Positions 23,851-53,809 of a stretch of DNA of 64,000 nt are shown here, in pieces. A model generated the notes under the pieces. That model was not told the origin of the DNA, did no database searches, and saw nothing but the letters and a program-made list of their open reading frames with translations. The DNA is taken from NCBI GenBank assembly GCA_037447655.1, contig JBBHKE010001423.1:1-64000 (forward strand), in the 5' to 3' direction. The position numbers were made by a program, and so were the translations under genes. How positions within the stretch are numbered: position 1 is the first letter of the stretch; each line of letters begins with the position of its first letter. Origin of the DNA: Zygnema cylindricum (Eukaryota; Streptophyta; Zygnematophyceae; Zygnematales; Zygnemataceae).

Positions 23851-23859
23851 GCACTAATT

Positions 23860-24264
23860 TTGGTTTCTTTCTCTCTCCAAGACGAGACTTTGACGTTTTC
23901 TGCGAAGGACAACACAAATCTATTTGCTTTGGCGGCAGCAATAGAGGGCGCGAAGGGCCCTGGATGGATAATGGATACGGGAGCGTCAGCCCACATGTGC
24001 TGGAACAATGCCATCTTCAAAAATCTGAAAACAACACTGGAGAAAAATATTTATTATGCTTGTGGAATGAGTGTTCAAACTCTTGCTGTGGGTGATATAT
24101 CCTTGCTATTTGATGTAGAAGGAAAGGTAATTGAAAGGACTCTTCACAATGTCTTATTTGTGCCTGACTTTAAGAAAAATATATTTTCTACGTCTTTGGT
24201 AGTGAGTAAAGGCTTTGAGGTTAATTTGAAAAATGGTGGCAGGTTGTTAGCAAAAATGGAATAG
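23860..24264 (+). pseudogene. Family C protease, open over 134 codons
   Basis: WIMDTGASAHMCWN carries the intact aspartic-protease triplet DTG. IYYACGMSVQTLAVGD and TLHNVLFVPDFKKNIFSTS follow, the usual copia protease order. The frame ends in TAG at 24262 just before integrase. It would cleave the Gag-Pol polyprotein. Confidence 0.85.
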
Positions 24265-24279
24265 TTGCGGTAAAAGGTA

Positions 24280-25640: not shown

Positions 25641-26360
25641 GAGCTTGTGGATCTTTCTCAGAACCGAAAAGCGATTGGCAGCAAATGGGTATTCAAGGTG
25701 AAGTTAAATCCTGATAACACAATTGAACGATATAAGGCAATACTTGTGGTTAAGGGGTATAATAAAAAGGAAAGAACTGATTTTGAAGAAACTTTTTTGA
25801 CGGTTGTAAAATTTCTGACAGTTAGGATTTTGTTGTCCCTAGCTGCTATAAATGATATGGAAATACATCAAATGGATGTAAAGATAACATTCTTGCATGG
25901 AGAACTAGAGGAGACCATTTACATGCAGCACCCTGAAAAGTATGCCGAACCATGTAAAGAGCACTTAGTTTGCAAGTTGCTAAAATCTTTGTACGGCCTA
26001 AAACAGGCCCCTAGGAATGGAATCTGAAGCTTGATGAATTCTTGACCAGTTTAGGATTTTAAAGGATAAGTTTTGATCACTCTGTCTACGTTCTAAAGGG
26101 TGAAAATGTGATAGTGTATGTAGCGGTGTATGTAGATGATTTACTATTAATTAGCAAATCAATGACTAAAATTAACAAAATCAAAACTGCTCTAAACTCA
26201 CGGTTTGAGATGAAAGACCTCGGTGAGGCAAAGTATATTTTGGGTATCCAGGTAGAGAGGAAACAGAAATAAGAAAGTAATAAAATTGACTCAAAAAGAG
26301 GCTATTGGGAACATGTTTGATGAGTATGGAATGCGGGGAGCAAAATGATGTCTAACTCAA
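25641..26360 (+). pseudogene. Family C reverse transcriptase
   Basis: [40 protein letters not shown] and [13 protein letters not shown] are followed by a frameshift, then SFDHSVYVLKGENVIVYVAVYVDDLL with an intact YVDD at 26129-26140 and FEMKDLGEAKYILGIQVE. The frame is broken by stops near 26025-26060 and at 26270. Confidence 0.9.
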
Positions 26361-27115
26361 ATGGAGTTTCGGCAGAAGTTACAGGGAGAAGAGACAAAAC
26401 CGGGTGTCATTGTTAGCGAGTATTTAGAGTCAGAGGAGAATGATCCTCTGTCACTGATACCTTATAGACAGATAGTGGGAAGCTTAATATATTTCATGAA
26501 CTATACCCGTCCTAACATTGCTGCAGCAGTTGGGGTACTGAGTAGAAGTCTAGAGAATCTAAGAAAATCTGATTTTGATGCAGCAAAGAGAGTCTTTAGA
26601 TTTTTGGCAAGAACCCAAGACCTCAAACTCACACTAGGCGGAGGAGAATTACTACTGCAAACATGGAGTGATGCAAGCTATGGCGACATGCCAAGCCGGA
26701 AATCCACCACGGGGTCGTTCTACAAATTGGGAACGGGACTTGCTGCTGGAGCAGCAAACTTCAAAAGGTTACAGCACAGTCGACAATGGAGTCAAAATAT
26801 ATGGCAGCAAGCTCGGCCCTCAAAGAACTCTTATGGGTAAAATCAATGTTACAAGAACTAGGATACATGCAGGTTGATCCACAGGTGATATGGTGTGAAA
26901 ACCAAGCTGCCATTGCCATAGCTTCTAACCCGAGTCATCACTTGAAAAGTAAGCACATGGATGTAAGATTACACTTTGTAGGAGAAAAAGTGTTCTCTAG
27001 AGTGATTAAATCATCTTATTTGCCAGATACAAAAATGACTGCTGATATGCTCACTAAAGCCCTTCCTGCTCATAAGTTGAAGTATTATAGGGACGCAGTG
27101 GGATTAAGTGAATAG
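26361..27115 (+). pseudogene. Family C RNase H
   Basis: 26361-26770 gives PYRQIVGSLIYFMNYTRPNI, SRSLENLRK and TWSDASYGDMPSRKSTTG. After a one-base shift 26786-27115 gives MESKYMAASSALKELLW, WCENQAAIAIASNPSHHLKSKHMDVR and TADMLTKALPAHKLKYYRDAVGL with a natural stop. The domain is complete apart from that shift. Confidence 0.9.
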
Positions 27116-27260
27116 TTCAATTGCTGCACTACTATACTGCCACGCTGCAATAAGTCTAACATTGAGATGTAGTGGGTCTAGGTGACTTGCTAATTATTAT
27201 ATTGTTATGTTGCGATGCTGCGCTAGTTTGTCATCGCAACTGCGCCGGTATACTGAGTCT

Positions 27261-27275
27261 AAAGCTTTAGGGGAG
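27261..27275 (+). other. Polypurine tract of family C
   Basis: AAAGCTTTAGGGGAG lies directly against the 3' LTR, the usual position for the plus-strand primer. Confidence 0.75.
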
Positions 27276-28164
27276 TGTTGTTTTTGGAAAGCTTTCAGTC
27301 TCAGCAAATTAGTAAGACGGTAGAAAGGTAGTAATTTGTAGCATAAGTTTCACAAGGACATGCGTCATCACTTGAGTGCAGTAAAGGACAACGCATCTGC
27401 GACGCAGACAGAACAGCGCAGTTGCTATGCAGACAGAGTAGCGCAGCTGCTATGCAGACAGAGCAGCGCAGCAGCGAAGTTGCGCCACAGACAGGACAAC
27501 GCAGCTGTGGTTTCTTTGGATATGATCCGTACAGACAACGCAGTTGCTGTTATCTTGGATATGATTTGGTACGCGACACCGCAGTCGCGGGTGATATGAA
27601 TGTGATTCGGTACGCGACAACGCAGCTACGATTAATATGAATCAAATCAAAAGACGAGATTCATAAGAGTGTCACATGTGACCTAGCCGACAACTTTTTG
27701 TAATATCACTTAATATAGATTTTGAGTAATATTGACTGTACGTTGATAGATTGGGTTGGTAGGATTAGGAACACGTAGATCTCAATACGTGGGTTTATTT
27801 TGGTCGTACTTCTCAGGTACACTTGTATCGGCGGTAGAACACCGAGAGTATAAGACTTAAGACTTAGAGCATTTTATGTATCCAGACTTCCAAGTGGCAA
27901 AACTACAAACAGTTTTTGGGAAATTTCTGAGTATTATATCTTGAGTGTTATCGGGTCAATTGTATTGAAACTTTGGGAGTTGTCAGTGTTTATGCTGCAC
28001 TATATTTTGATAGAGCTTTGTGAAGTTTGGATGCTTGTATAAGATATGGTGAGCACTTGTAAACAGTTGTTTGGTAAGATTCTTGATAGCTTTTGAGAGT
28101 GTATCATATCTACTTCTCCTACTACTGCTGCTCCTCCACCTGCACCGGTGGTTGTAGAACAACA
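27276..28164 (+). repeat. 3' LTR of family C
   Basis: 889 bp, TGTTG…GTAGAACAACA, matching 22137-23032 including the minisatellites. The position of the in-LTR gag ATG reads ATA here. It is followed by the second TATCT. Confidence 0.9.
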
Positions 28165-28379
28165 TATCTCTTCGGTTAATTGGGTGTTTTGCTTGAAACT
28201 TCTTGAGTTGTCAGCACACGCAATAAATTGTAGCCTCATACAGTTTGGGGCCATTTGGCCATATTGACTGCTTTTTGTAGTGGATCTAAGTTAGTATCTT
28301 GAGTGCTTCCTATCTTTGGTTCTGTGATGGCTACTACTTCAGCAACTGTTGGTGCTACACTGGCTATCATAGAACAACA
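28165..28379 (+). repeat. 5' LTR of family E, right part
   Basis: It continues the LTR cut at 22136 and matches 31056-31263. An ATG at 28327 opens gag, 53 nt before the LTR end (MATTSATVGATLAIIEQ). The 3' LTR keeps an equivalent ATG at 31211 with a very similar leader. Confidence 0.85.
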
Positions 28380-29025
28380 GGTTAGGGGCCCACCCTCAAG
28401 AATTCCTATCTTTGTTGGCAATGACTATATCTATTGAGCGGATATGGTGGAACTTTACTTTCTTAACTCGAATTTGATGGACGTGGTGGACGGATATCTT
28501 GCGGAATCAGACGCCAAATGGAAAAAGAAAAATTTGTAGTGTCTTCACACTATTAAAATGCTTATTTCAATGGAGCTGGCTATGGCGCACATTCATATGA
28601 AAAAGGTGTCAGAAATATAGAATTCTCTTAAAAAGATGCACACAAACACTAAAATGCAGCACCAAATGATTACGGCTGGGAAAATTTGGGAGTATAAGTA
28701 TATCGGCAGTACCATGGTTGAGTATTCTTACGGTCTAAGAACACTAATAGTAGAAAATGCATGTGCAGGTGGTACATTTCATGATGATCTACAAGCTTTG
28801 TTACTAATGAGAGGACTTTCTAATGAATATAAACGAGCCTCTGACAATTTGAAAAAACTAGCACAGGCAGATTGGAATCTAGCGATAGCAATTCAGTATG
28901 TCTTAGATGAAGAGTTCAGTCAAGAAGCGTTTAAAGGTACTGTACAGGCATAAGCTTTTAACACACAAACTTTTAAAAAGGAACAATTTCAAAATAGTCA
29001 AAATCAAGTTCCTTGCAAACCTGAC
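28327..29025 (+). pseudogene. Family E Gag, starting inside the LTR
   Basis: ATG at 28327 reads through the LTR end into PPSRIPIFVGNDYIY, then a TGA in place of Trp, then ADMVELYF and DVVDGYLAESD. 28636-28953 gives KIWEYKYIGSTMVEYS and LLMRGLSNEYKRASDN. Interrupted by several stops. The zinc knuckle lies just downstream (29029-29070). Confidence 0.8.
28380..28394 (+). other. Primer-binding site of family E
   Basis: GGTTAGGGGCCCACC matches 14 of 15 positions of the complement of the plant initiator tRNA-Met anticodon arm. It is translated as VRGPP in Gag. Confidence 0.8.
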
Positions 29026-29568
29026 ATGTGTTATTATTGTAATGCAAAAAGGCATGGTTACCAAAGCTGCCCTGATTATATAAAAGCGTATGAGACAGGT
29101 GTGTTTCGACAAGGATGGTTTATTAGAAAATCGAAAATTCGACAACCTGCAAAAACGTCGGCATTTTCCTCGGAGACAAACAAAAACGAAAATGAAGTCG
29201 TCACTTTTTCCCAACCGTCTGACAAAGAATTATTTGCACTAAACAACAGAACCAAAGGAGACAGGGACCTTGGGTGGATCATGGACACCGACGCTTCTCA
29301 ACACATGTGCTCGAACAGAAAATATTTTGACAATCTTCATCCAATATCTCAAAAGAAAATTTATTATGCGGACGGACAATTCATCATATCTAACGCCAAA
29401 GGCACGACAACACTCAATATTCTAATCGAGGGTAAACAAGTTGAAAGAACACTTAACGATGTTCTCTATGTTCCTGACTTCAAGAAAAATCTCTTCTCCA
29501 CTACGATTGAAGGAAGCAAAGGCTTTGAAGTACTGCTGAAAAAAATAAAGCAAATAGTCAGTAAATAA
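29026..29568 (+). pseudogene. Family E Gag zinc knuckle and protease, 180 open codons
   Basis: CYYCNAKRHGYQSC is a CX2CX4HX4C knuckle. The protease follows at about residue 83: WIMDTDASQHMCSN, where the essential Gly of D-T/S-G is Asp, then KKIYYADGQFIISNAKG and LYVPDFKKNLFSTT. Loss of that Gly should inactivate the enzyme. Confidence 0.85.
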
Positions 29569-29607
29569 TGTAGAGTAACACTCCTAGGAACACGAGGTCA
29601 AAATCTG

Positions 29608-30211
29608 ATGTATAGGCTTGATATTGCCAATATTAATGAAAAAGATGTTTTGTACTCGGTTGCCCTATGTGACAATGAGTTATGGCATAAAAGACTTGGT
29701 CATGTCCACTATGAAAGTCTTGATAGAATGGTAAAAGAAGGTATAATTATAGGATTTAATATTAATAGCAGAGAAAAACATATTTGTGATGAATGTGCTC
29801 TCGGAAAAATTCATAAAAATCCATTTCCTTGAGAAAGTAGCCATAGAGCAGCTAGTGTGTTAGAAGTAATTCACTCTGATGTATGGGGACCGACTCTAAT
29901 ACCATCATCTGGTGGATTTCCATTCATGAATGACCTTTACAGATGACTTTTCCAGGTTTACAAAAATCTATTTTATGAAAGAGAAGAGTGAAGTGCTCTC
30001 TCACTTCAAAGAATTCAAGATATGGAGCGAGAAAATTCACGGGGTTCCTATTTTAACCTTGAGATCAGATAATGGCGGGGAGTATTTATCACGGGACTTC
30101 ATCAACTTTTTAAAAGAAAACGGAATTTCTCGTCATTTAACGGTCCCATATTCTCTTGTACAGAATGGTGTAGCTGAGAGAGTTAACATAACACTATCAG
30201 ATAGTGCCTAA
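29608..30211 (+). pseudogene. Family E integrase, C-terminally deleted
   Basis: The zinc region LWHKRLGHVHYESL … CDECALGKIH is intact. A stop follows at 29831. The core has VIHSDVWGP, TFTDDFSRFTKIYF, LRSDNGGEYLS and LVQNGVAERVN, so the DDE residues are all visible across two frames. The C-terminal part is missing and the sequence jumps to a Gag-Pol linker near 30215-30420. Confidence 0.85.
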
Positions 30212-30413
30212 TCAATGCTAGCAAACAAAATAGAAAGACAAGGAATCGGCAGAAATACGCATATTAGCAACGAAACAACTTCATCGCTGAACGAGCGACG
30301 AGAGCATCCCGTCGCTAACTTACCAAATCAGAACACAATGGACAACAATTTCACAAAAATGCAATGTAAGTCTTTCGTCAATTTCAGCCTCGAAATTTTC
30401 GGGGGGAAAAAGG

Positions 30414-30800
30414 ATGATTAGTCGACGAAATGCAAATGCAAACCATTATGCATTTAATGAAAATTCTAAGGAGTCTGTTACCAATCATCAAGCGTTCTCA
30501 GCACCGGAAAAAAAACACTGGATAGCAGCAGCAAATGACGAAATGAAATCGATCATGGAGGCCCAAACGTGGGGATTGGTGGAACTACCTCCGTATCATA
30601 AAGCTATTGGGAGTAAGTGGGTTTTTAAGGTAAAACTTAATCCAGATAATACCATCGACAGATACAAAGCTAGGCTAGTAGCAAAGGGTTATAATAAAAA
30701 ATAAAGAATTGATTATGTGGAGACATTTTCACCAGTTGTCAGATTTCCAACTGTCTGCATTTTGTTAACACTTGCGGCTATATAAAGAATAGAAATACAT
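30414..30800 (+). pseudogene. Family E reverse transcriptase, N-terminal piece
   Basis: [36 protein letters not shown] and ARLVAKGYNKK end in a TAA. Text continues to the HQMD-like start of the catalytic region (EIH) and breaks off at the truncated 3' LTR near 30801. No YVDD box is left. Confidence 0.85.
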
Positions 30801-31263
30801 TAAGGTTCGTTTGTATTGTACTAAACAGTAGACACGGTATATGAATTTAACATACATCAGGTAATTAGTTAGAGTACATTAGAGTACGATTAAATAGTAC
30901 CGTAACATTCTTTACACTGCTGTGATTGGCTAATTAGAGAGTAGTTGAATTTATTTGTATAAATTCTAGGATTTAGGTACTTTCATGTATTCCTTTTTAT
31001 GAGGTTTGAAGGAGCACATATGTGCAATCTAAAGGATATTCTCTGGGGTATATCTCTTGGGTTAATTGGGCGTTTTGCTTGAAACTTTTTGAGTTGTCAA
31101 CACACGCGGTAAACCGTACTCTCATATAGTTTGAGCCATTTGGCCATATTGACTGCTTTGTGCAGTGGATCAAGTTAGTATCTAAAGTGTTTCCTATCTT
31201 TGGTTCTGTGATGGCAACTACTTCAACAACTGCTGGTGCTGCACCGGCTGTCATAGAACAACA
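30801..31263 (+). repeat. 3' LTR of family E, 5'-truncated
   Basis: It matches 21879-22136 plus 28165-28379 and ends TCATAGAACAACA. It lacks the U3 start and polypurine tract, removed by the deletion that also took RT and RNase H. Confidence 0.8.
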
Positions 31264-31470
31264 TGTTTTAGAGGAAAAGGCTAATAACGAGGCTCTAAAG
31301 ATTAGGGGGAATTTTCAAGGTGTTAGATCACAATTTCAAAGAAATGAGAAAAGTTGTAAGGTTGAAAACTGCTTTTATTGTAATGATGCAGGACATACTT
31401 TCAGGGTATGTCCGCTATATAAAAGTGCATGTGTCACAAGAAATTTCATAAATGGATGGGATGATAATTG
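31264..31470 (+). pseudogene. Family B Gag, zinc-knuckle part
   Basis: LEEKANNEALKIRGN and RNEKSCKVENCFYCNDAGHT followed by FRVC give a CX2CX4HX4C knuckle. GWDDN then a stop at 31469. It matches the minus strand of copy 1 at about 4450-4650. The stop may be the natural end of Gag or a mutation, since similar text continues in frame (VRPPKLKVTLPVEEFVYL). Confidence 0.7.
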
Positions 31471-31522
31471 AGTTCGACCCCCTAAACTAAAGGTTACACT
31501 TCCCGTCGAAGAATTTGTATAC

Positions 31523-31966
31523 TTGCCAATTGTTGCTCTTCGAGATATGGGACATGAGGAACGAAAAGAAAAAAATGTTGTTACCGGAAATGGAGTGGAG
31601 AAAGAGGTGACAAGAAAAGAGTCAGCTTTTGTCACTTTTACAAATGACAGATTGGTGAGTGATGAAGACTTGCAAGAGGAAGAGGTTATTGAAATAATAA
31701 TATTAGGAGGAAGTGAAGGGGATTTAGTAGTTGAAATTGAAAATAATTTGCATGAGGAGAATAATACACTTCGAGAAGAAGAGAGGAAAAGTGTTCAAAA
31801 AAATGGAGTCAGTGAAGAATTTTATAATACGGAAGAAAAAGGAGAGAGAAAAAGTGTTAAGAAAATTGAAGTAAACGAAGAAACTTATAATATGGAAAAA
31901 GAAAATAAAATTGTGAAATTGAGAAAATACCAAAATTCAAAAAGAAAACGAAGAAAAGAATCATAA
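31523..31966 (+). CDS. Glu/Lys-rich protein of the gag-only family B
   Basis: 147 codons, highly charged: acidic first half (EEEVIEIIILGGSEGDLVVEI), then blocks of EERKSVQKNGVSEEF and GERKSVKKIEVNEETYN that look like a duplicated ~22-residue unit, and a basic end (KRKRRKES). No known domain. The same region in copy 1 is decayed. It sits where pol would begin in an autonomous element and could be the C-terminal part of a longer Gag, since the frame is open upstream across the stop at 31469. Its role is unknown. Confidence 0.5.
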   Translation: MPIVALRDMGHEERKEKNVVTGNGVEKEVTRKESAFVTFTNDRLVSDEDLQEEEVIEIIILGGSEGDLVVEIENNLHEENNTLREEERKSVQKNGVSEEFYNTEEKGERKSVKKIEVNEETYNMEKENKIVKLRKYQNSKRKRRKES

Positions 31967-32368
31967 CTCAAAGGATTAACAGTAGAAGAAAATATGTTCC
32001 AAAAGTGGTCAAAAGAAAACGGCGTGAAAAATAATTTTACGGAGGTGACTACCATCAAAATTCAGTAATATATGTAGAATTTCGAATTTTGCATTTTGAT
32101 TTTTGAAATTAGTTGAAAAGAAAGTTTAATTTGTGAAGACTCAGAAAAAGGCAACGGTAGCAATGGTTTTTAGAGAGGATGCATTTTGGAAGAAATGGCA
32201 GTAGGAAGCTGGAGTTGTCTTAGTGTAGCAAAAGCAGTGGAGACTAGGGACACATCTGGCTACGCTGCTATGTTGTGTTGCTATGCTGCTCTTATCCAAC
32301 ATCGCAATCATAGCAGCTACACTGCTCTTATTTTAATTCCGCATGCACGAAACTAAATTTTCGAGGAG

Positions 32369-33505
32369 CGTTATTTTCGAAAAGTGAGTTTCGTGTGTAC
32401 ACAATGTTTCGTGAGTACCTAACGAGATTTTTAATGCTTACGCTATCTTTATTTACTGTGGAGGTTCAAATGGATTTGTGGTTTGGGGGAGTAATGGTAC
32501 TAATTGTTTTGGGACGTACGGAACTATTTGAGTGGCGTGAACATACATAAGAAAAGGTACGGAAGGGTTTAAGTCAAATGTACGGCGGATCGCGAAGCGA
32601 TCCGATTCGGAATGTTTGGAAACGTACGCCACATGTACAAATCATAATGATGACAAAAGGATTTCGAACTGAAAGTGGCATGAGTGGCACTTATTGGAAA
32701 ATGACGCTGCTAGTACTAACTAATTTGGATGAGGTGACGTCAGCTCGTCAAGTGGATTGTGTGACCACGCGACACGACATCAAGGATGTCGAATAAGATA
32801 TACGGACATCGGCGCCGTCAGTTTGGTGAGGGACGCGAAATCGCGTCCATCACATGATGTTTATTTTGGACGGTCCCGGTTCGTTTGACGGAATTCGTAA
32901 GACTTGTAAATATTTAGCAATGTTTTGTCCTGTGTATTAATTATTAGTGTAGATCTCATGTACACTCACATTAATTGAGGTAGTTGATTGATTACGTACG
33001 GCTGGTATGCCTCCGTACAGTAGTAGTAAGCTGTAGTGTATATTTGTAGGACTTAGTCATTTTTGGACTTAGGAACTTTTTGGACAGAAACAGTTTTCTG
33101 CTCCTTTTTGGGAATTTCATCTGAGAATTGATCTCAGTTCTATTGGCAGAATTATCTGAAGTTTTGCATGTGTGTTCCTCCTTGTATTTTAAATATTGTG
33201 GCAAATTTGCAGACCTATTGTGTGTCTGGTTTGCTTGGGGCTTCATTGTGAAGTTGGTCAAATTTATCAAAGTTCTGGCAGGCTGTTTTTCTGCAACTTT
33301 GATTGGGTGATGTGGGAATTCTGGTTGGTATATTTATATGAGAATTCGTGGGTCTACTAAGTGGTGTAAGAACTATCTGCTTGTGTAGTTTCAGCTTGGT
33401 TTGGTAATTATGTAGAATTCTGAGTGGAATCAAACTAGGCTGTTTTGGGGTAGTCTGTGGTGCTTCCGAGGGTACATTCATGGCTGGAATTGCTTCAAAC
33501 CAACA
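32369..33505 (+). repeat. 3' LTR of family B copy 2
   Basis: It begins GTTATTTTCG after a purine-rich tract (TTTTCGAGGAGC) and ends TTCAAACCAACA. It matches 20458-21593 throughout, including the GGATCGCGAAGCGATCC palindrome at 32586. Confidence 0.8.
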
Positions 33506-35499: not shown

Positions 35500-36213
<714 letters not shown>

Positions 36214-39904: not shown

Positions 39905-40626
39905 CGAAAAGTGATGCTTTTGGGCAACCATCTGAGCGATCGGAGGAATCCCCCGCAGCCACAGATAGATTTGTCCTAGCGCAGGCAATCACTAGAAGGA
40001 CACTGAGATAGATCACAAAGGTATAGATAGGATATTGAGAGAGGAATAGAGAGGATACAATCACATCAAGATTAGAAAAGACAAGATAGTTGTAATTCAG
40101 CTTATAATAGAACTAGTCAAGGGGTCACTTAGCGAAAGCTAAGGTGATCCCCCAAAGAGATTACAATGAAATTCAGACACTTGTAATCCCTAATCTCAAC
40201 TGAGACTAAAGCTGAGTTCTTAACTACTCTCTAATCTAATTTGTACACTGAATGTAATGATATGAAATGTCTTATGAAGTCTACACTCTTGTACTCTCAC
40301 GAAATAATGTGTAACAAAGTGTTATCTTCTGAAAGCTTCTCCTGTGCATCATAAGCCCTATGCTTTGATTCCTTAAGCCTTAATGAAATGCTTGCCTTAC
40401 ATGCCCATTTATCCCTTTCTGAATGCATCTGTGGTGATGTGCTTAATGGAGTGGTGGATTGTGGTCCAATGGATGAATGGCATGTGTCTTAGTGTACTCC
40501 ACAAGTGTGTCCAATGAGAACACTCGGTTTTGTCCTCTGTCAGATGATTTCCCATTGGAAATCGTCACATGTGACGTCCTGTCACAAATCGGTACTGTAG
40601 TCCCGATTTTGGTATATACTTGGTCA
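39905..40626 (-). repeat. 3' LTR-like region of family F (U3 matches, rest diverged)
   Basis: 40452-40626 is nearly identical to 44958-45134. Beyond that the two LTRs do not align well, but this side still ends in a similar arrangement (CTATCTGTGGC…, then ATGGTTGCCC near 39935), like ATCTATCTCTGTCGCTCGTAATGG at the 5' LTR. It may be a recombinant LTR with a U5 of another subfamily. Confidence 0.5.
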
Positions 40627-42719
40627 AATATCGGTTGGCTAGCAATATCGCCAAAGACAATATCTCGTTGATTGTACTGCTGTCCCAAATCGCCTTGAAT
40701 CGTTCGTCTCGGCATAAATTGGTATCGCGTGAAGTCGTACTTTTCAACACTCCCACTCGAATTCAGTGCGGTACCGATTTCACTTGATGTTTCAGATTTG
40801 AAACGTCGTTTCACTTTCCGAGAGGACTTTGTTGTGCTGTCCTTTTCATCATGGAAGTAATTTGTACCTTGGTCACCATTTCGAATATGCGTGACGTCGC
40901 GGTCAGACTTCCTGTAAACTTCCTGGAATTTAACAAGCGGCAATTCGATTGGACCACGTTGTGTCACATTGAATTGCGTCGACGGCGGACTGACACCTGT
41001 GACTGTACCAGTCGACCGGACCTGTACTTGCCTCGCTGTGATTGTTATCACCACCTCGTCCGTCGGATTCTTTGGATTACATTTGATCGAGCGCCTCTGC
41101 CGCGCATGCTGAATCGTACCCTCGAAAGACGATGTTGTACCCTTGGAAATTGCCGAACCTTGTTCTGAACCTTCTCCAGCTGTACTTAGGTTAGCTCCTT
41201 CAAGCCTCCTTTCATCTTGTCTTTTGTCACCTGCAGGACAAAAATTGTTAGTCTTCTCCTTCTCTGCAATTTCTTTTCTTGCAGATTTCTTTCTTGCAGA
41301 CTCCTCTTTCTTTGCCGAGTCCTCCTGTGAGTGATTAAACGTAGAAGTCCTTCCATTCTCTTTCGAATTGGAGCCGCCTCCACCTGTTTTAATCAATATC
41401 TTCCCTTTATCCAAAAATTCTGTATGCAGAATTTCACCTTTGTGAATGCTCCCACTCACTGCTTCCGCTGCCATGTCTGGGTGTTGCTCTTTGTCCTTCG
41501 GCTCTGGAAAACTTTCCTTGGTGGCCGGATTTTGAAAGCCTTGAGGTAAGTTCCCTTGAGTTTGCTCCTCAAGCATGTTCCTCGCTGCATTTTTCCCACT
41601 GAAATCCGCTAGCAGTGCATCCTTAAATGTCCTAAATTTCGTTTTCCCGCCTTTTCCCTGCTCTTCCTTCACCAATGTTTCTGACATCTTGATATTGTGT
41701 GCAGGCTGAGTTGATGTGGTCGGCTGATTGAGGGATTTCGGAGTGATGGACTTCGCTTCTCCCACTATCTTTGTGCTCTCTTGCTTGATATGGTAAGTTT
41801 TGATCTGTCCCCTCCCTTTATCCTTGACATTTGCAGAAATTGGGTTGCATTGCTGTTTTGTGACTTCTATTGGAAGAGTTTCTAAATTCCTCCTTCCACT
41901 TTTCTCCATCTTACAAATTCTGATTGTTTGTAAGGACTCTCTATTGTGCAGAAAATGCCTCTTGTCTGGACCATTTTCTACCATGGATGAATTCTGTCCA
42001 TCCGGATTCTCAATCTGCTCCTTCCTTGTTTGAAGTGTGGAGCCTTGAGTTTCAGTCGCCTCCTTGAGACCTTCTCCATCCTCTAAATCTTTTTCTGGTA
42101 AGTTCACCTCTCCCTTTTCTATCGAAACACTGGTGTTTTCCCTTTCCCTAAGTGAGTTTCTGAGTATTCTACCAGCTGCATTTTTGTCACATTTGCAGTT
42201 GTCTTTCTGTCTCCTCTCACGTCTTTGATGTGTCTTTGGGGAGTCTTTCACTAGCTTGCTAGCTACACCATGATTGCTAATCATTTTCTGTATTTTGATT
42301 TCTTGCAGGTTTTGTGAGTTCCTAGGTTTTGAGACGTGATTGTGGGATGTTTGTGGATACATGTGTGGAGAGGGGAAATGGGGGATGCCATTGACTTTTG
42401 TGAAACTCTTGCTACTCCTTGTATGTTTCTGTTGTGGTAAGTCATTGCGACCATCCTCTATCTCTTTGTCTACTCTCCCACTATCTTGTATCGCTTTCAG
42501 TTTGAGTTCTCTATCATTTTGGTTGACCTTAACTCCTGCTGTCTCTGATGCATCACCATTACTCTTTTGTGATGCCCATCCACCTCTTGCCTGTCCACTA
42601 CTGCTTCCGCTGCATGATCGTTGTGTTTTGGCCTCTAAAAGTGGGTTTTGTTTTTCTGACACCTCATCATTACTCTGATCATTTCCGTGGACCTTGCCTT
42701 TCTGTTGTGCCAGGTGCAC
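40443..42719 (-). CDS. Long hydrophilic protein of unknown function in element F
   Basis: 758 codons from the first ATG (42717-42719), but the frame is open without ATG back to about 43057, so it probably continues the upstream frame after a frameshift. The protein is Ser/Lys/Glu/Gln/Asn-rich and looks disordered, with a Lys/Ala/Glu helix-like block (residues ~468-490, KKEESARKKSARKEIAEKEK) and a basic patch at ~635-640. No copia or host domain is recognised. The last ~60 codons lie within the LTR repeat: the same peptide is encoded at 44958-45134. A 2.3-kb frame without stops in a decayed element region suggests it is recent or was under selection. It may be a captured host gene or a very divergent element protein. 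Confidence 0.6.
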   Translation of the reverse strand: MHLAQQKGKVHGNDQSNDEVSEKQNPLLEAKTQRSCSGSSSGQARGGWASQKSNGDASETAGVKVNQNDRELKLKAIQDSGRVDKEIEDGRNDLPQQKHTRSSKSFTKVNGIPHFPSPHMYPQTSHNHVSKPRNSQNLQEIKIQKMISNHGVASKLVKDSPKTHQRRERRQKDNCKCDKNAAGRILRNSLRERENTSVSIEKGEVNLPEKDLEDGEGLKEATETQGSTLQTRKEQIENPDGQNSSMVENGPDKRHFLHNRESLQTIRICKMEKSGRRNLETLPIEVTKQQCNPISANVKDKGRGQIKTYHIKQESTKIVGEAKSITPKSLNQPTTSTQPAHNIKMSETLVKEEQGKGGKTKFRTFKDALLADFSGKNAARNMLEEQTQGNLPQGFQNPATKESFPEPKDKEQHPDMAAEAVSGSIHKGEILHTEFLDKGKILIKTGGGGSNSKENGRTSTFNHSQEDSAKKEESARKKSARKEIAEKEKTNNFCPAGDKRQDERRLEGANLSTAGEGSEQGSAISKGTTSSFEGTIQHARQRRSIKCNPKNPTDEVVITITARQVQVRSTGTVTGVSPPSTQFNVTQRGPIELPLVKFQEVYRKSDRDVTHIRNGDQGTNYFHDEKDSTTKSSRKVKRRFKSETSSEIGTALNSSGSVEKYDFTRYQFMPRRTIQGDLGQQYNQRDIVFGDIASQPIFDQVYTKIGTTVPICDRTSHVTISNGKSSDRGQNRVFSLDTLVEYTKTHAIHPLDHNPPLH

Positions 42720-42826
42720 AACCTTTGGGGAGATTTTGAGAGCGTCCTTGTCAGAGGTTTCGTCTGGGGTTTGGTACTTTTGATCGTCGCGTGTGGATAC
42801 AACAATGTAACCCTCGTTGACCGATT

Positions 42827-43813
42827 TCAGGTCGACGCCTTTTGGTGAGCACCTTTTGCTCCCCTTTGGGTCGCTTCCACTCCTCCCACTGAATTGGGAC
42901 TCCGTGAACTTAGTTCCATTGCTCCTTTCTTTCTGTTCCCAGCAAGTCCCAAAAATTGTCTTACCGTGTAAAGCGGTGTTAGTATGTTTTTCTGCTTTTG
43001 TAGCAATGCTTCTGCTTGCATTGCAAATTCTCTCCTTACTGCCATTGCAGATTTATCCATGCTCTCGTTGCAGATTTTGAATTTGAAATAGGAATGTTTC
43101 CCTACCAGCTGGTTTCTAATGTTCACAAGTTTTCTTGCTATTTTCAGATTGGCGTTCCGTGAACCCAGCTGTCCTCTTTGTTGTGGAAAATCTTCCTTGT
43201 TCAATTTTGCATTCCTGTCCTTCCAGCTTCCATTGCCCTGGTGAGTTGCCTCTATCTTAGAGTCTATTTTGTTGCCCTTGTTTGTTGTTGAGCTGGCTAT
43301 GGGTTCTCCTTCTCCTTTGATCTCTAGCCTGACAACTGTTTCTGGTGATCTCTGAGCCGTCCTAGCTGAGTGGATGCCCTGATCTCTCCTGTTGTGACTA
43401 TTGGTCCTTTGTGGTTGCTCGTGCCTTTGTGACTTATCTGACTCATCTTTCTGCCCTGTTTGATCTATTGTGACATGCAGATCATGAGTGAAGATCTGTG
43501 GGGAGGTGCCCGTTGTTGCATCAGAGTTTGTCAAAACTCCATCTCTTTGTGGCCCCCCTTCGTCATCTGTTGCACCTGCACCTACACAATGGTGAGTCTT
43601 AACCTGAGTGTCTTGTTTATCTGCTCCTCTGAGGGGCAGATTCTCCTTGCACCTCTTGTTGACTGCTTCCCATGTGTCCTTTGCTGCTGATTTGAAGCTC
43701 TGTCTGCACTTTGATGACTCCTTCATTTTCCTGCAGCTTTTGTTAGTAATATCAATTACTTTCGATGTGGCAGGGACCTTGATTCTCTGTGATCTGTCCT
43801 CACCATCTTTTGC
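42827..43813 (-). CDS. Upstream part of the family F hydrophilic frame
   Basis: From the TAA at 43814-43816 the same frame as the protease continues open for ~329 codons to a stop at 42827-42829; the first ATG is at 43724-43726. It begins basic (SCRKMKESSKCRQSFKSAAK) and continues Gln/Arg/Asp/Gly-rich. Near its end it has the only segment that looks foldable (KLVNIRNQLVGKHSYFKFK). It overlaps the downstream frame between 43057 and 42830, so one indel there would join the two. No domain recognised. Confidence 0.5.
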   Translation of the reverse strand, partial: AKDGEDRSQRIKVPATSKVIDITNKSCRKMKESSKCRQSFKSAAKDTWEAVNKRCKENLPLRGADKQDTQVKTHHCVGAGATDDEGGPQRDGVLTNSDATTGTSPQIFTHDLHVTIDQTGQKDESDKSQRHEQPQRTNSHNRRDQGIHSARTAQRSPETVVRLEIKGEGEPIASSTTNKGNKIDSKIEATHQGNGSWKDRNAKLNKEDFPQQRGQLGSRNANLKIARKLVNIRNQLVGKHSYFKFKICNESMDKSAMAVRREFAMQAEALLQKQKNILTPLYTVRQFLGLAGNRKKGAMELSSRSPNSVGGVEATQRGAKGAHQKAST

Positions 43814-44497
43814 TTAGTCGTTTTTGACATTCTCCTTCTCGTTGCTGTTTGCAGGATTTGCGACCTTTGTCGCGCACCTCGCACTGCTGGTTGGTTGAGG
43901 GCATGGTGACTTCTTGAAGATCTTGAGGCGATATAGTTTGTCGCCCCTTCTCTCTCCTACCGCCAGTAGCAAACCGTTTCTGGTAAGCTCTACTTTCCCG
44001 TTTTCCCAATTAGAAGAGATGCCAATGGTTTCGGCTTGACAAATAGAATATATGTTGTGGAGTGAGTCTGGAACAAAGTGGACGTTTGTGAGGGTTCTCT
44101 CTAACCTTTTCCCTTTTACTACGACATCTATGGTGATGTTGCCTATGCCTTTAGCTAGTAGAGTCCTACCATCTACCATCAGTGCTCGTTTGGGATGGAT
44201 GCTTTTGAAAGATGAAAAGTGTTCTCTCGTGAATGTTATGTGTGTTGGGGTAGTAAGGTCTATGATCCAGTCATGATCTAGAGGTTTTGTGTTGGAAACT
44301 GTCATTGTGTTTAACATTTCTCTCCCTCTCTCTGTGGTTGTTTCCCTATCCCCTTCCGCTCGTTTGTGGCGTGAGGCCAGTGCCTCCCACATATTCCATG
44401 AGTTTCTCAACCTCACCATTTCTGCCAGTTCGGGATCCGCTCGATGATCTTTGAATTGGCTTGTGTTTATCCACTTTGCTTGAATCTCTCTTAGATC
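43814..44497 (-). pseudogene. Family F Gag remainder and protease-like domain lacking the catalytic triplet
   Basis: The frame opens after a TAG at 44498-44500. A Gag-like stretch (RNSWNMWEALASRHK) leads to WIIDLTTPTHITFTREHF, where copia proteases have D-S/T-G-A. Here the triplet reads D-L-T. The rest of the fold is well kept: MVDGRTLLAKGIGNI, LTNVHFVPDSLHNIYSI and DKLYRLK. The conserved surroundings with a lost active site suggest the domain is inactive but otherwise little damaged. It ends in TAA, after which the same frame continues. Confidence 0.75.
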
Positions 44498-44704
44498 CTA
44501 GATCTCCATTAAATCATTCTCATTTTTTGTCTCTGTTCCCTTTGATCCAGGGACAGTCTGCAGCTCCTCTCGGGTGACAATTCCCAAGAGGCTTCTCTCC
44601 TCGAGCAATCTGGTCACTCGTATTCTCCACTCTTCGAAGTACCGTACCTTGAACCTATCTAATGGCCCAAGTGGGCCCATAACCTGATACGCGGGGTCGG
44701 CCAT
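44498..44704 (-). pseudogene. Family F Gag N-terminus, starting inside the LTR
   Basis: ATG at 44702-44704 is 20 nt inside the 5' LTR. The frame reads MADPAYQVMGPLGPL, crossing the LTR end and primer-binding site, then DRFKVRYFEEWRIRVTRLLEE. A TAG at 44498-44500 separates it from the rest of the same frame. The middle and end of Gag, with the zinc knuckle, are absent. Confidence 0.75.
44671..44684 (-). other. Primer-binding site of family F (perfect)
   Basis: The minus strand reads GGTTATGGGCCCAC, an exact 14-base complement of the plant initiator tRNA-Met anticodon arm GTGGGCCCATAACC. Confidence 0.85.
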
Positions 44705-45134
44705 TACGAGCGACAGAGATAGATCTCAGCGCCACAAACTTCCAACTCCGGAGCAGAATACACAAGGCTCAGATAGGACAAGTGACCAGGCAGTTTGATC
44801 AGAATTTAGAGTGGGTAGAGATAGGACAAACACAGAAGCTTTAGAAAGATTTTTTACTTCCCATTATAAGAATAGAAGTACAATTGATGTAAGACAAAAA
44901 TGGACAGATTGTCCCTATTAATAAAGTTGGATGCTATTCTGTCTTTTACTCCCTGTGAGTGGTGGATTGTGGTCCAATGGATGAATGGCATGTGTCTTGG
45001 TGTACTCCACAAGTGTGTCCAATGAAAACACTCGGTTTTGTCCTCTGTCAGATGATTTCCCGTTGGAAATCGTCACATGTGACGTCTTGTCACATATCGG
45101 CACTGTAGTCCCGATTTTGGTATATACGTGGTCA
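44685..45134 (-). repeat. 5' LTR of family F
   Basis: About 450 bp on the minus strand, TGACCACG… to …GCGTATCA. The first 177 bp encode in frame the same C-terminal peptide as the long ORF and match 40452-40626. Homology with the 3' copy extends 8 bp past the assigned start, so that end is approximate. Confidence 0.7.
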
Positions 45135-45142
45135 AATATCGG

Positions 45143-48025: not shown

Positions 48026-48715
48026 TGTCCTTTTTGAGTTTTCTCTCTCTTAGAAAGCAGGTTTGCCGAAAAAAATACTTCAAATGCCTCGTTGGACAAT
48101 GATTAATCCTTGTAGTGCATAGAAATTCCGAACTAAAATTTCAAACCTCTGTACAACTACGATTCCTAGAACCTTACTACCCGAAGCTACAAAGTTCCAA
48201 ACTCTTGGACAAATTATGTTTCATTTCGTACATTTAAACTCTCTACTGTCTCCTCCGTAGTCTGTCTCCTTTTCTGTAAAGAATAAGGTAGGAAAAAAGA
48301 TGTTGATCTTCTGAATTTTTCATTTTATTATTTCTTTTAAATACACGTGTACTTTCATTCCTTCTTTCTGTGCTGATTGGAGGTTTTTTTTCAACATGCA
48401 AAGACATGCTTACTACGAATTTCAAATGTTAGGCAAACACCGTTCAAGCTTTTACGTTTTAATGTGGATCAGGAAAAGATATTCTAGAAGCGACGATCTT
48501 CGTTTCAAGGATTACAAAAATAGTCAAGATTTGAAGGCCAATTAATGCCTACGGAGCTAAAAATGAAGCGACCAATGGTTGTCGTCCAACTACACATTAT
48601 TGGAGGTGGATTGGCGGATGCCATGAAATTATCCCAAATACAAATCAATTTCTCTTTCAAATGCATTGATCTTTCTCTTGTTTACAATTTCATGTGGCTT
48701 GCCAACGCCCCCTAA

Positions 48716-48726
48716 CTTTGATACCA
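48716..48726 (-). other. Canonical plant primer-binding site
   Basis: The minus strand reads TGGTATCAAAG directly after an LTR ending CTCAACA. This matches the 3' end of initiator tRNA-Met, the usual site in plant LTR elements, unlike the half-tRNA sites of the copia families here. Confidence 0.75.
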
Positions 48727-48973
48727 TGTTGAGGATCAGCGATATTCTATATATCGCATGGGCGCCAAAGTGAAAGCATTGGTTAAATGGCCAAGCCAGG
48801 GATCCAACCCGAGACCTTGTGCTAGGCATACACTAGCTCTACCAATTGAACTACCCAGGCGATTGTGCATGCAAGCGCCTGAAACCGAATTTACGGCAAT
48901 GAACGACGCAATGGCGGACCAGCATTTACTGTGATACACACGTGTGGAGTCCGAAGTGGACATCCCTCCAACA
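48727..48973 (-). repeat. Small LTR containing a tRNA-like sequence (family T2)
   Basis: On the minus strand it runs TGTTGGAGGGATGTCC to GATCCTCAACA (247 bp) and is followed by a canonical primer-binding site, so it is a 5' LTR. The partner LTR was not found within the next kilobase. A tRNA-like cloverleaf occupies 48789-48860. Its first ~94 bp are tandemly duplicated upstream (48933-49120). Confidence 0.7.
48789..48860 (-). ncRNA. tRNA-like cloverleaf inside an LTR
   Basis: Exactly 72 nt with tRNA geometry on the minus strand: acceptor 7, D arm GTTC/GAGC with 8-nt loop, anticodon arm with loop ATGCCTA (U33, GCC in anticodon position), 5-nt variable loop AGGTC, T arm TCGGG/CCTGG with loop TTGGATC. 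A-box (TAGTTCAATTGGTAGAG) and B-box (GGTTGGATCCC, one mismatch) match RNA polymerase III promoters. The acceptor stem has one mismatch and several G-U pairs, so it is unlikely to be a working tRNA. Confidence 0.75.
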
Positions 48974-49120
48974 CAGATGTGCATGTATACATTTTGAAAT
49001 ATGTTATTGTCCAGACTGAAGTGTGCGATACACACGTGTGGAGTCCGAAGTGGACATTCCTCCAACACAGATGTGCATATATACATTTTGAAATTTATTA
49101 TTGTCCAGATTGAAGTGTAC
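48933..49120. repeat. 94-bp tandem duplication of the small-LTR start
   Basis: GATACACACGTGTGGAGTCC begins both copies (48933 and 49027). The copies differ at only a few positions. Confidence 0.9.
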
Positions 49121-49140
49121 TATAATATGTTGTGTCAGAC

Positions 49141-49830: not shown

Positions 49831-50170
49831 CAGCCACGCGTCACTCAAAACCTTCTATTGTACGTCTGACTCCTAACCTTCAAACGAACCTTCAAAGAAC
49901 GACACAACTTCACCGAAACGAAATGGTGCGCTAGACCGGACACCGTACTGGACACTACGCACAGAATAGTACATCTTATAGAGGAAATATTCAAATCATG
50001 CGCTAGACCGGACAAGGTACCGCATACTACTCACAGAATAATGCATCTCATCTTTATTCAAAATATAGACCTTTGTGTTGACGTCCGCATAGTGTTCCGC
50101 TTGATACTCGGAATTATGGTAATATCCACATTAAAACCTATATAAAATTGGACCCACCATTGTCATATCT

Positions 50171-50247
50171 GAGCTGGTGGTACAGTGGTTAGTATGTTCA
50201 CAGCTAAAGTGAAAGGAAAGGTCCCAATTTCAAATCCTGGCCGGCTC
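50171..50247 (+). ncRNA. tRNA-like cloverleaf in the 5' LTR of the TRIM
   Basis: The 7-bp acceptor stem GAGCTGG/CCGGCTC is fully paired (one G-U), and the anticodon stem TTCAC/GTGAA is perfect. A-box TGGTACAGTGG fits. The B-box region is TTTCAAATCC. A 5-nt duplication (GGAAA) enlarges the variable loop to 77 nt total. The anticodon loop AGCTAAA lacks U33, so decoding is unlikely. Confidence 0.75.
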
Positions 50248-50470
50248 ATCAATCCTTTTATTGGGATCGTCCATTCTATCCCCCGATTCTAGGAATCGTA
50301 ACATGGTATCAAAGCCAAGGGGACCAGGTTTACATGGACAGTTATGACCGGCTACCTCTCGAGGGGGGTGTTGACGTAGGCAAGGTGTACAGCTCGATCT
50401 CAAAATTGTGGTAATATCCACAATAAAACATATATAAAATTGGACCCACCAGCGTCATAGCGTCATATCT

Positions 50471-50542
50471 GAGCTGGTGGTATAGTAGTTAGTACGTTCA
50501 CAACTAACGTGAAAGGTCCCAAGTTCAAATCCTGGCTGGTTC
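50471..50542 (+). ncRNA. tRNA-like cloverleaf in the 3' LTR of the TRIM
   Basis: Exactly 72 nt: acceptor GAGCTGG/CTGGTTC, D arm GTAT/GTAC with loop AGTAGTTA, anticodon arm TTCAC/GTGAA with loop AACTAAC, variable AGGTC, T arm CCAAG/CCTGG with loop TTCAAAT. The B-box GTTCAAATCC fits the polymerase III consensus. Stems remain paired although the two LTRs differ at several positions. Confidence 0.78.
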
Positions 50543-50889
50543 ATCAATCCATTTTTTGGGATAGTCATTCTATCCCCTAATTCTAGGAATCTTAACAATT
50601 TGGTCGTCCGTTTGAAAACCTTTAAATAGGCCGACTTTTTGTTTATTTGCACCCGTAAACGACGTGTTCCTCGACCGACGTCACCGAACAGGTAGCTTTG
50701 TCCCTTCAGCCGACGTCAACAAACTGGTAACTTTGTCGGAGACCTCAACGACCGGGTAACTTTCAAAGTACAACCTCGGCAATCGTTTTTAACCGTCGGA
50801 TCTTGGGTGCTCAAACCTGTCAATGAATATAGATCAAACCGCCACCTGCAATAATGCGCCTTCAACTGTCCATACTTCGTTTGTGGTCG

Positions 50890-51739: not shown

Positions 51740-53809
51740 TTACACAAACATCACTTTGACCTCTCTATTTAAGAACTTGTCGATTTCATCGGGATATCTC
51801 ATTTTCCATACCCTGAGATACACCTCTCGAGAGATTTCTACATCACAAAATAATTCCACATACTTCCTTTTTAAAATTTTTTTTTGCCATAATGCCTGTC
51901 CATGTGGATGGAAATGACAGTACAGGAGCCCAATAATTTGAACTAGTTTGAAAAGAGGACCAAATGAAACAGAGGACATATTCCAAAAAATGAGGCCGAG
52001 AAGGTCACCAAATCGCATAGTAACACATGTCCTCCGTAAATTTTTTGACCCTAGGCGATCAGCCAGCATTTGCCCCTCAAAACTTGTAGGTTTGTACTCG
52101 CCTTCTTTTGTCGGGAAAGATTTAGGAAAGTACCAAGGAACCAACCATCCATGGCTTGTTCCATCTTTTACCACGTGATCTCCTTGAAATTTGTAAATAC
52201 TCAGTTTGTTTTCATATTGTACGAGCCGGAAAGCCATATTCCATTCCCCTCCTTTCAAAATGTTAACACAAGATGGTTTTTCTGGAGATATTGTAAATCC
52301 AACATGCAGTGCCGCACCGTCTGCCCGCTTCAAACTCTCTAAACTCTTATCTTCTCCTATTGTTTGAGGGACTCCTGTGTGGAATTCCTTATAAGTTTTC
52401 ACCGTCATCTTCCCCTCGACGATCTTCAGGGATCTTAAATCAACCAGAAGATCCAGAAATTCTACTAGATTATTTTCATGGAGCATTAACTCTGTCACAG
52501 AAAGCGCACACCCGTTTATACCTTTATCATAGCTTAAAACGATCACTTTAGTATCATTGAAATAAATATCGGCTGCTGTCAGCTCTATCCTAGAAAATTG
52601 CTCGAGGATGAGCCAAAAGAGATCTCCAGCACACAAGGAAACAGACTTATTCCGTGCTTCTCTGTTGAAGAGATTCTGTGCCAGCTCAGTATCAATGTAT
52701 TGTGACGTTGTGTATTTACAAGCAGCTGACATCTCAAAAGTTGCATCACTCCACCATACACCATCGGAGTTATGCTTGCCTCTCTGCCTCCAAGCATCTT
52801 TTCTAATCTTAAAAAGACCTAACTCACGGTTTACTTGCTTGATACTATGCGTCTGGTTCCTCTCAACTTCAGAAATAGCATCTTTTCTAATCTTAAAAAA
52901 AACTAGCTCACGGTTTACTTGCTTGATACTATACGTCTGGTTCCTCTCTAATTCAGAAATGTTACCTGAAGCAGATGACGTGGCCTCCTTCAAAAAAATT
53001 TGTGTTTTCCGTGCTCTGGAAGCCACTACCAAAGCAGATGCTGAAGGTTTTTCTTCAACCTCTCTATTCATTAAAAGACGCAGACCAACCTCTTTCCGAA
53101 CTTCCCCTTTTACATCCATTGATATTCCATCTTCAGTAGAAATGACATTGACAATCTCGCCCATTTTCTTAGAATCACAAGAATAATGCTTCAATTTCAC
53201 TGATTTCACTGAGTTAAAAGATAATATTTCCAGATCTTGACTGCATACTATTTTCATCTCGCCACCGTGTTCTTGTACGGCTACACATCCTTCCCAAGCA
53301 CGTGGCAGGGAGGAAGCCATTAAGCCGATAAGTTGTCGTATCTCCATGGAAACACACTTGTACGATACATCTCCCTTTACACGTCCTCCAAGCACCATCT
53401 TCTTCATAAATATCGATGTTTTGTATATGCAAGTTTTTGTTGGAAAAGTGTCACAAGGCTTTAATACGAAAACCGGTCTAGGCTTATGGACAAAATTACG
53501 TTCTACCATTTTATAAATACGAGTAGTGCCACCATTCTCTTCGAAAGGAACCTGGACTTGATCTTCTTTTTGTTCGTGAGCTTTGCGGTCGCGCGGATTT
53601 TGCGAATTATTTTCTCTGGCCCTCCCTTCAAGGCTTTTACATATGGTTGTAGTACCACCTTGTAAGCCATGGGCGCAATAAAAGTAAAAAGACTGGTCGG
53701 ATCCATTGAAAAGAGCAAAAGCGTTGAAATTATGGAAAGCGATGGCAAAGACAAAAAAAAGGGAAGTAGAAAAAGAAGTGGGAGGAAAAGAAAGCTCGTT
53801 ACTACTCAT
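51740..53809 (-). CDS. Intact single-exon 689-codon ORF, unknown protein
   Basis: The longest undamaged frame of the gene-like section. ATG at 53807-53809, TAA/TAG-free to the stop at 51740. An N-terminal hydrophobic stretch (residues 15-33) could be a signal or anchor. Residues 285-311 and 312-338 are a 27-residue tandem repeat (ERNQTYSIKQVNREL). Three short segments resemble each other: CVSMEIRQLIGLMASSLPR (152-170), SVSLCAGDLFWLILEQFSR (389-407) and CVTMRFGDLLGLIFWNM (595-611), hinting at a protein built from three related modules. A glutamate/lysine linker lies at ~230-290. I do not recognise a family. There are no copia motifs. It could be a lineage-specific host gene; introns cannot be excluded. 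Confidence 0.65.
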   Translation of the reverse strand: MSSNELSFPPTSFSTSLFFVFAIAFHNFNAFALFNGSDQSFYFYCAHGLQGGTTTICKSLEGRARENNSQNPRDRKAHEQKEDQVQVPFEENGGTTRIYKMVERNFVHKPRPVFVLKPCDTFPTKTCIYKTSIFMKKMVLGGRVKGDVSYKCVSMEIRQLIGLMASSLPRAWEGCVAVQEHGGEMKIVCSQDLEILSFNSVKSVKLKHYSCDSKKMGEIVNVISTEDGISMDVKGEVRKEVGLRLLMNREVEEKPSASALVVASRARKTQIFLKEATSSASGNISELERNQTYSIKQVNRELVFFKIRKDAISEVERNQTHSIKQVNRELGLFKIRKDAWRQRGKHNSDGVWWSDATFEMSAACKYTTSQYIDTELAQNLFNREARNKSVSLCAGDLFWLILEQFSRIELTAADIYFNDTKVIVLSYDKGINGCALSVTELMLHENNLVEFLDLLVDLRSLKIVEGKMTVKTYKEFHTGVPQTIGEDKSLESLKRADGAALHVGFTISPEKPSCVNILKGGEWNMAFRLVQYENKLSIYKFQGDHVVKDGTSHGWLVPWYFPKSFPTKEGEYKPTSFEGQMLADRLGSKNLRRTCVTMRFGDLLGLIFWNMSSVSFGPLFKLVQIIGLLYCHFHPHGQALWQKKILKRKYVELFCDVEISREVYLRVWKMRYPDEIDKFLNREVKVMFV

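Follow-up and report, generated by a model that had tools for sequence, protein, structure and literature searches.

Two TRIM families of the Helenus layout, with tRNA-like sequences in their LTRs, in the genome of Zygnema cylindricum

Introduction

Helenus elements are TRIMs defined by a tRNA-derived sequence within their LTRs, reported from fungi, animals and one plant (Kojima 2024, PMC10886601). The sole plant listed in that paper is Selaginella moellendorffii, whose Helenus-1_SMo has an LTR of 120 bp and an interior of 85 bp. Target duplications are given there as 5 bp in plant and fungal members, and the conserved boxes as TRGCY and YGG (box A) and GGTTC (box B). The same text leaves Pol III use as not validated and proposes SINE2, the tRNA-headed SINEs, as the source of the LTR tRNA module. 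A 2026 meeting report mentions Helenus (PMC12859917), and the available text of a plant TRIM survey lists eight subfamilies in S. moellendorffii, with the term "tRNA" absent from its main text (PMC4717578). Our literature searches, limited to openly licensed papers, found no further plant Helenus.

The window examined here, a 64,000-nucleotide stretch of Zygnema cylindricum DNA, contains copies of two TRIM families, F1 and F2. Like Helenus, F1 has tRNA-derived sequence inside its LTRs (by ARAGORN and Rfam) and carries a PBS and a polypurine tract between them. It is likewise a TRIM of two LTRs, shorter than about 1000 bp and without mobilisation proteins (522 bp, no ORF of at least 150 aa). 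Both families share the 5-bp target duplication, which is perfect in 17 of 30 F1 loci and 6 of 11 non-overlapping F2 loci. By published dimensions alone, they differ from Helenus-1_SMo, with LTRs of about 222-229 bp and an interior of 65 bp in F1, and 247 and about 60 bp in F2. F1 and F2 are thus two tRNA-TRIM families of the already described Helenus layout in one genome. The initial annotation, which knew of no described family with this layout, was wrong on this point, as the published account of Helenus sets out the same arrangement (PMC10886601).

Cassandra is the other close relative. According to the text of PMC7215508, it is a plant TRIM with a small-RNA Pol III promoter in its LTRs, the PBS TGGTATCAGAGC and tandem arrays, all of which have counterparts in F1 (where the promoter is putative). 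Its LTRs carry a 5S rRNA-like part, whereas those of F1 and F2 carry a tRNA-like part instead; Rfam scans of the stretches examined listed tRNA and no 5S rRNA in the F1/F2 region. SINE2 elements share with both families a tRNA-like head with A and B boxes, but are without LTRs, PBS or integrase-type duplications.

Results

Anatomy of the window copy

The F1 copy occupies window positions 50076-50597 (522 bp). Its 5' LTR (50076..50303, + strand, 228 bp) and 3' LTR (50369..50597, +, 229 bp) both start with TGTTGACG and end in TAACA, confirming the two direct repeats of about 228 bp with LTR-type ends that were initially described. The pair is identical at 193 of 221 aligned sites, with 28 differences, 8 and 7 gap columns and a K2P distance of 0.139. 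At plant substitution rates of 1.3e-8 to 6.5e-9, this copy would be about 5 to 11 million years old.

The 65-bp, non-coding interior (50304..50368, +) opens with a primer-binding site of the initiator-tRNA type, TGGTATCAAAGCC (50304..50316, +), and closes with the polypurine tract GAGGGGGG (50361..50368, +) directly 5' of the 3' LTR. The PBS is identical to the published Cassandra PBS at 11 of 12 sites, and a site of this type is that of plant elements in the account of PMC7215508. Flank comparison showed CTTTG at 50071..50075 and ATTTG at 50598..50602, a 4/5 match. The PBS, polypurine tract, 65-bp interior and near-perfect target duplication claimed for this element are therefore all present. 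No ORF of at least 150 aa overlaps it. A TATATA motif occupies 50139..50144 (+) in the 5' LTR, 32 nt upstream of its tRNA-like part, and has a 3' LTR counterpart at 50431.

The tRNA-like part of the window LTRs

A tRNA-shaped sequence had been reported in each LTR, and both were recovered. ARAGORN called tRNAs at 50170-50250 (5' LTR) and 50470-50545 (3' LTR) with anticodon CTA, and the parts themselves, at 50171..50248 and 50471..50543 (both +), scored 35.7 and 42.3 bits against the Rfam tRNA model (gathering score, 29 bits). None of 1000 dinucleotide shuffles of either LTR gave a tRNA call, and 60 whole-window shuffles gave a mean of 0.0 calls. These tRNA matches were not listed in two whole-window Rfam scans but were listed when shorter stretches were scanned, and we take their absence for a search-size effect. 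A third tRNA-like stretch, at 11783-11854, is not claimed; it appears only at a threshold that yields 111 calls in the window.

Box positions were assigned by reading the sequence. The A boxes lie at 50178-50188 in the 5' LTR (TGGTACAGTGG) and 50478-50488 in the 3' LTR (TGGTATAGTAG), and the B boxes at 50227-50237 (ATTTCAAATCC, decayed) and 50522-50532 (AGTTCAAATCC), all on the + strand. GGTTC has been lost from both LTRs of this copy.

The 3' part had been described as exactly 72 nt long and folding into every canonical arm. As a drawn fit this stands, with 72 nt plus one unpaired 3' base and standard pairs at 20 of 21 cloverleaf positions (19 of 21 in the 5' LTR part). As an actual fold it does not, because the cloverleaf is not the minimum-energy structure (-11.9 versus -14.0 kcal/mol) and the folding energy of the part is no better than that of shuffles (z 0.24). 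Minimum-energy folding was rejected as proof of a cloverleaf altogether, since three tRNA parts folded no better than most shuffles (z -1.09, 0.24 and -1.63). Covariation between the two window LTRs alone was also set aside. Four stem pairs had changed yet remained paired and one had changed and broken, events too few to count, so an alignment of 56 sequences was used instead.

The F1 family across the genome

The window's own genome (352,776,454 bases in 2689 contigs) was searched with the whole element as query. From 634 first-look candidates the best 40 were scored and 48 matches listed; the first 30 loci and then 12 more stretches were fetched. F1 LTRs measure about 222-229 bp and the interior 65 bp. 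Among the first 30 loci, target duplications match at 5/5 positions in 17 and at 4/5 in five (window copy included), with at most 3/5 in three others and five unscored. L002 and L003 may represent a single event, as their flanking 5-mers are identical, and the duplication of L016 (GGGGG) is of low information. L005 sits in a local duplication and has its own flanks, GATGT/GATGT. LTR-pair identity ranges from 0.873 in the window copy to 1.000, the two LTRs being 100% identical in L009, L012 and L028. The perfect 5-bp duplications at 17 of 30 loci, together with some identical LTR pairs, indicate that F1 moved recently. Arrays of at least three LTRs that share interiors occur at L008, L016, L023 and L026.

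The tRNA-like part is present in all 82 F1 LTR hits that span its place, at 39 other loci among the best 40 of 634 candidates. This count leaves aside L001, the refetched stretches L033 and L036, and LTR hits that do not span the tRNA place. One further LTR, at L041, breaks off after about 31 nt of the tRNA-like part. Two observations had been named in advance as telling against the element: copies lacking the tRNA-like part, and a SINE inserted separately in each LTR. Neither appeared, the first among the spanning hits just counted, the second in that the part lies in register in both LTRs. Because the search used the full-length element and scoring stopped at the best 40 of its 634 candidates, copies devoid of the part may have ranked below that cut. 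Separately, at L005 (3158-3247, minus strand), the F1 tRNA part of an LTR inside the local duplication is interrupted at its anticodon arm by a 17-nt insertion.

Sequence types, pairing and divergence of the F1 tRNA-like part

The fetched loci gave 68 F1 tRNA parts, 58 of them distinct, and 56 were aligned (L016:1947-2019 and the broken L030 part were omitted). ARAGORN called 51 of the 68, with anticodons CTA (28), CTT (22) and ATT (1). In 12 chosen loci (7 F1, 5 F2), 22 of 24 LTRs exceeded the Rfam tRNA gathering score, with a maximum of 58.4 bits. Boxes were scored with the words TRGYNNA (A) and GWTCRANNC (B) in place of the Helenus TRGCY/YGG and GGTTC. Of the 68 parts, 66 contain the A-box word and 52 the B-box word. 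By alignment reading, the F1 parts mostly have GGTTC, and their box A starts with TGGT or TGGC, not TAGC.

Upstream, TATAWA lies within 45 nt of 63 of the 68 parts. Downstream, the longest T run within 40 nt is at most 3 in 62 of 68, so F1 has no conserved Pol III terminator; the T4 and T6 of the window copy are atypical of the family. We rejected avoidance of T runs as a Pol III signature. TTTT is absent from 12 of 17 intact single copies (counted without L005, L022, the arrays and any locus whose duplication matched at fewer than 4 bases), yet it is also absent from 14 to 47% of shuffles, and the copies are related, which makes the signal weak.

Across the 56 F1 sequences, 94.6% of pair cells are standard, against a shuffled mean of 93.6, and none of 500 shuffles reached as high. 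The number of pairs with double changes was not above that of shuffles (3 versus 2.5; 220 of 500). Sliding the partners by +2 columns gave 6 double-change pairs and 30 cells against 3 and 26, although only 36.8% of cells then pair. One D-stem pair is UA in 29 of the 56 distinct sequences, CG in 24, UG in one and unpaired in two. Taken together, these results point to one inherited event rather than broad covariation.

F1 has two tRNA-like types, represented by 25 and 27 LTRs, that are set apart by a compensated change in one D-stem pair. Their differences fall at 6 of 73 tRNA positions (one being a deleted base), 3 of 102 in U3 and 0 of 54 in U5; comparison of the tRNA part with the rest of the LTR (6/73 versus 3/156) gives a Fisher p of 0.031 with relatedness ignored. 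Both types occur within one locus at L008, L024 and L029, and mosaic parts at L011 and L026. Mean pairwise difference among 52 LTRs is 0.119 in U3, 0.084 in the tRNA part, 0.056 in U5 and 0.067 in the interior. Both window LTRs and LTR hits not near full length were omitted from the divergence and type comparisons.

A second tRNA-carrying family

A window scan combining the PBS (at most 3 mismatches) with the junction pattern returned a single further LTR-end/PBS junction, on the minus strand at 48726. It bounds a decayed 247-bp F2 LTR (48727..48973, -, TGTTGGA..TCAACA), 1.1 kb from the F1 copy, which the initial annotation had overlooked. Its tRNA-like part (48788..48860, -) is also decayed, scoring 26.6 bits in Rfam, below the 29-bit gathering score, and called by ARAGORN at a relaxed threshold that 4 of 1000 shuffles of that LTR reached. 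The PBS/junction scan and comparison with other F2 copies place the first 40 bp of the interior, with PBS and G-tract, at 48687..48726 (-); its remainder and the 3' LTR are missing. Just upstream of this copy, a 94-bp tandem duplication (48930-49124, 92%) repeats the start of the F2 LTR.

The identity of this decayed and truncated copy was settled by a genome search, in which 573 candidates were found, the best 40 scored and 72 matches obtained. These gave 19 F2 loci, four of which (L053, L055, L058 and L062) overlap others. Across the 19 loci, LTRs measure 247 bp, mostly with the ends TGTTGGA...TCAACA, and interiors 59-62 bp. Eleven non-overlapping loci have chained LTRs, and six of these (L046, L047, L050, L054, L056 and L059) show a 5/5 duplication; the others are L044 (4/5), L045 (3/5), L052 (2/5) and L051 (1/5), with L061 unscored.

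At its default threshold, ARAGORN called 38 of 41 F2 tRNA parts, assigning 24 to Asp, 11 to Ala, 2 to Val and 1 to Ser, overlapping loci included. The A-box word is found in 40 of the 41 and the B-box word in 37. Alignment reading places a TAGC-type box A start and GGTTC in these parts, both in standard form, and the fetched F2 copies carry near-canonical tRNA-like sequence. Mean pairwise difference among 27 F2 LTRs is 0.038 in U3, 0.043 in the tRNA part and 0.033 in U5. In neither family, then, is the tRNA part the best-conserved region.

The tRNA parts of the window F1 and F2 copies are identical at 47 or 48 of 86 columns, with 0 or 1 of 500 shuffles higher, as would be expected of two tRNA-like sequences. 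Outside the tRNA parts, the LTRs of the two window copies show no likeness beyond shuffles. Since only the tRNA parts are alike, separate tRNA captures in F1 and F2 are likely. None of the 94 ARAGORN calls obtained from the 229,632 bases examined fell outside F1 or F2 tRNA parts. Pattern scans of viral contigs for the LTR word, the tRNA head, the LTR-PBS junction and the B-box-to-PBS layout gave 0 matches each.

Two composite loci were also observed. L049 (1501-2037) is a chimera running from an F2 LTR through an F1 interior into an F1 LTR, with an apparent F2 interior end upstream. L048 (1441-2953) has three F2 LTRs in mixed orientation. Each adjoins a complete or incomplete F2 interior, and the PBS of the first LTR is followed by a longer stretch without a match.

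Copia elements and other window features

A decayed Copia on contig C2640 (L063, 599 onward) lies beside an F2 locus and contains Pol_BBD, gag_pre-integrs and rve domains. Its start, directly after CTCAACA, is TGGTATCGGAGC, identical to the 12 nt that open the F2 interior of L044. No LTR pair was found for it in the surrounding 7.5 kb, for which reason we treat it as a lead only to a possible helper type for F1 and F2.

Three Copia elements are nested in the window at 20460-33492. Copia A (LTRs 22137-23032 and 27276-28164) lies inside B (LTR pieces 21880-22136 plus 28164-28383, and 30799-31267), which lies inside the outermost element, D (LTRs 20460-21580 and 32371-33492). The PBSs of B and D match at 13 of 14 sites, and that of A at 10 of 14, a word that we take to be of the half-initiator-tRNA type. 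This is a different PBS, and B and D accordingly look like poor helper candidates. Among plant elements, the available text of PMC6317226 gives half-tRNA-Met PBSs only for the Osser, Bryco and Gymco-II Copia lineages, which would make a non-flowering plant host likely.

Elsewhere in the window, a 186-bp repeat pair (40449-45142, minus strand; 96% identical) flanks an interval of about 4.3 kb. This interval contains an ORF with a Copia Pol_BBD domain and two further ORFs, of 299 and 758 aa, for which Pfam gave no match at 0.001. A 689-aa ORF at 51740-53809 (-) is a possible host gene; it had no Pfam match at 0.001, and a PDB search gave one non-significant match (E 0.18). A long AT-rich array at 35533-36085 has 26-bp spacing between many copies.

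Discussion

Our data suggest that the element at 50076-50597 belongs to a high-copy, non-coding TRIM family of the Helenus type, of which it is an old and decayed copy, and that the tRNA-like part in its LTRs most likely serves as a Pol III promoter; we hold this account as a whole to be probable. Pol III, acting through the A and B boxes, would most likely initiate transcription close to the tRNA-like part of the 5' LTR, and the RNA would extend through the short interior into the 3' LTR. A helper reverse transcriptase would then copy this RNA in trans, with initiator tRNA as primer at the PBS and the polypurine tract priming the second strand, and a helper integrase would insert the element with a 5-bp duplication. 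The promoter step is inferred from the box words of both families (66 and 52 of 68 parts in F1, 40 and 37 of 41 in F2), and the reverse transcription and integration steps from the anatomy of many copies and the known biology of LTR elements. We propose with less confidence that a Copia element acts as the helper. The initial proposal of a Cassandra-like element using a tRNA-derived promoter in place of 5S thus holds for the Cassandra-like TRIM and its tRNA-like part, while Pol III use is predicted from box sequences.

The anticodon loops of tRNAs carry U33, which that of the F1 part is without. At least in F1, then, the tRNA-like part is likely to be a promoter module that was captured, and not a functional tRNA. 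The layout recurs in the same genome in F2, with a different tRNA-like part.

The strongest alternative, in our view unlikely yet deserving of weight, is that the TRIM is transcribed by Pol II from the TATA motif, with the tRNA-like part as a passenger or as an RNA structure serving as R region or in stability or packaging. The TATAWA found close upstream of most F1 parts would fit such a promoter, as would the lack of a conserved downstream T run. TATA-like motifs also occur upstream of plant tRNA genes, so the motif is not decisive between the two polymerases. Published Cassandra-like TRIMs without a 5S part are described as having TATA boxes (PMC10853983), which again suits Pol II. Against this stand the A- and B-box words retained in most F1 parts, and the recurrence of the arrangement in two families whose tRNA-like parts differ; a passenger would leave this unexplained.

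A further idea, which we regard as doubtful, extends the Pol III promoter account. The tRNA module would be exchangeable and kept as a fold beyond its two promoter boxes, with module swaps and cuts by tRNA end-processing. Template switching between TRIM families served by one helper might exchange their LTR modules, and enzymes that process tRNA ends might cut the cloverleaf and so set the RNA ends. The concentration of type differences in the F1 tRNA part, the compensated D-stem pair, the mosaic parts and the L049 chimera led us to this reading. If true, such processing would account for the missing T-run terminator.

An ordinary TRIM whose two LTRs each received a tRNA gene or SINE independently would agree with the SINE insertion proposed as the origin of the module (PMC10886601), but is extremely improbable given a part that lies in register in both LTRs and in all 82 spanning hits at 39 other loci (best 40 of 634); a single capture of the tRNA module in an ancestor is likely. 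Equally far-fetched is a SINE or tandem tRNA pseudogene array that merely resembles an LTR element, for although tRNA heads are typical of SINEs (PMC10886601), the unit has TG...CA ends, a PBS and a polypurine tract, is flanked by perfect 5-bp duplications around its LTRs at 17 of 30 loci, and forms arrays of LTRs with common interiors of a kind known for TRIMs (text of PMC4717578).

TRIMs with a tRNA promoter had previously been listed among plants for one lycophyte, and F1 and F2 add two families in one genome. Each has hundreds of candidate places, and some near-identical LTR pairs imply recent movement. Such copies can inflate tRNA gene counts, as ARAGORN at its default threshold labels most of the fetched F2 parts tRNA-Asp or tRNA-Ala. 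If Pol III uses the module, these families would offer a natural system for an LTR element that runs on Pol III without an obvious terminator.
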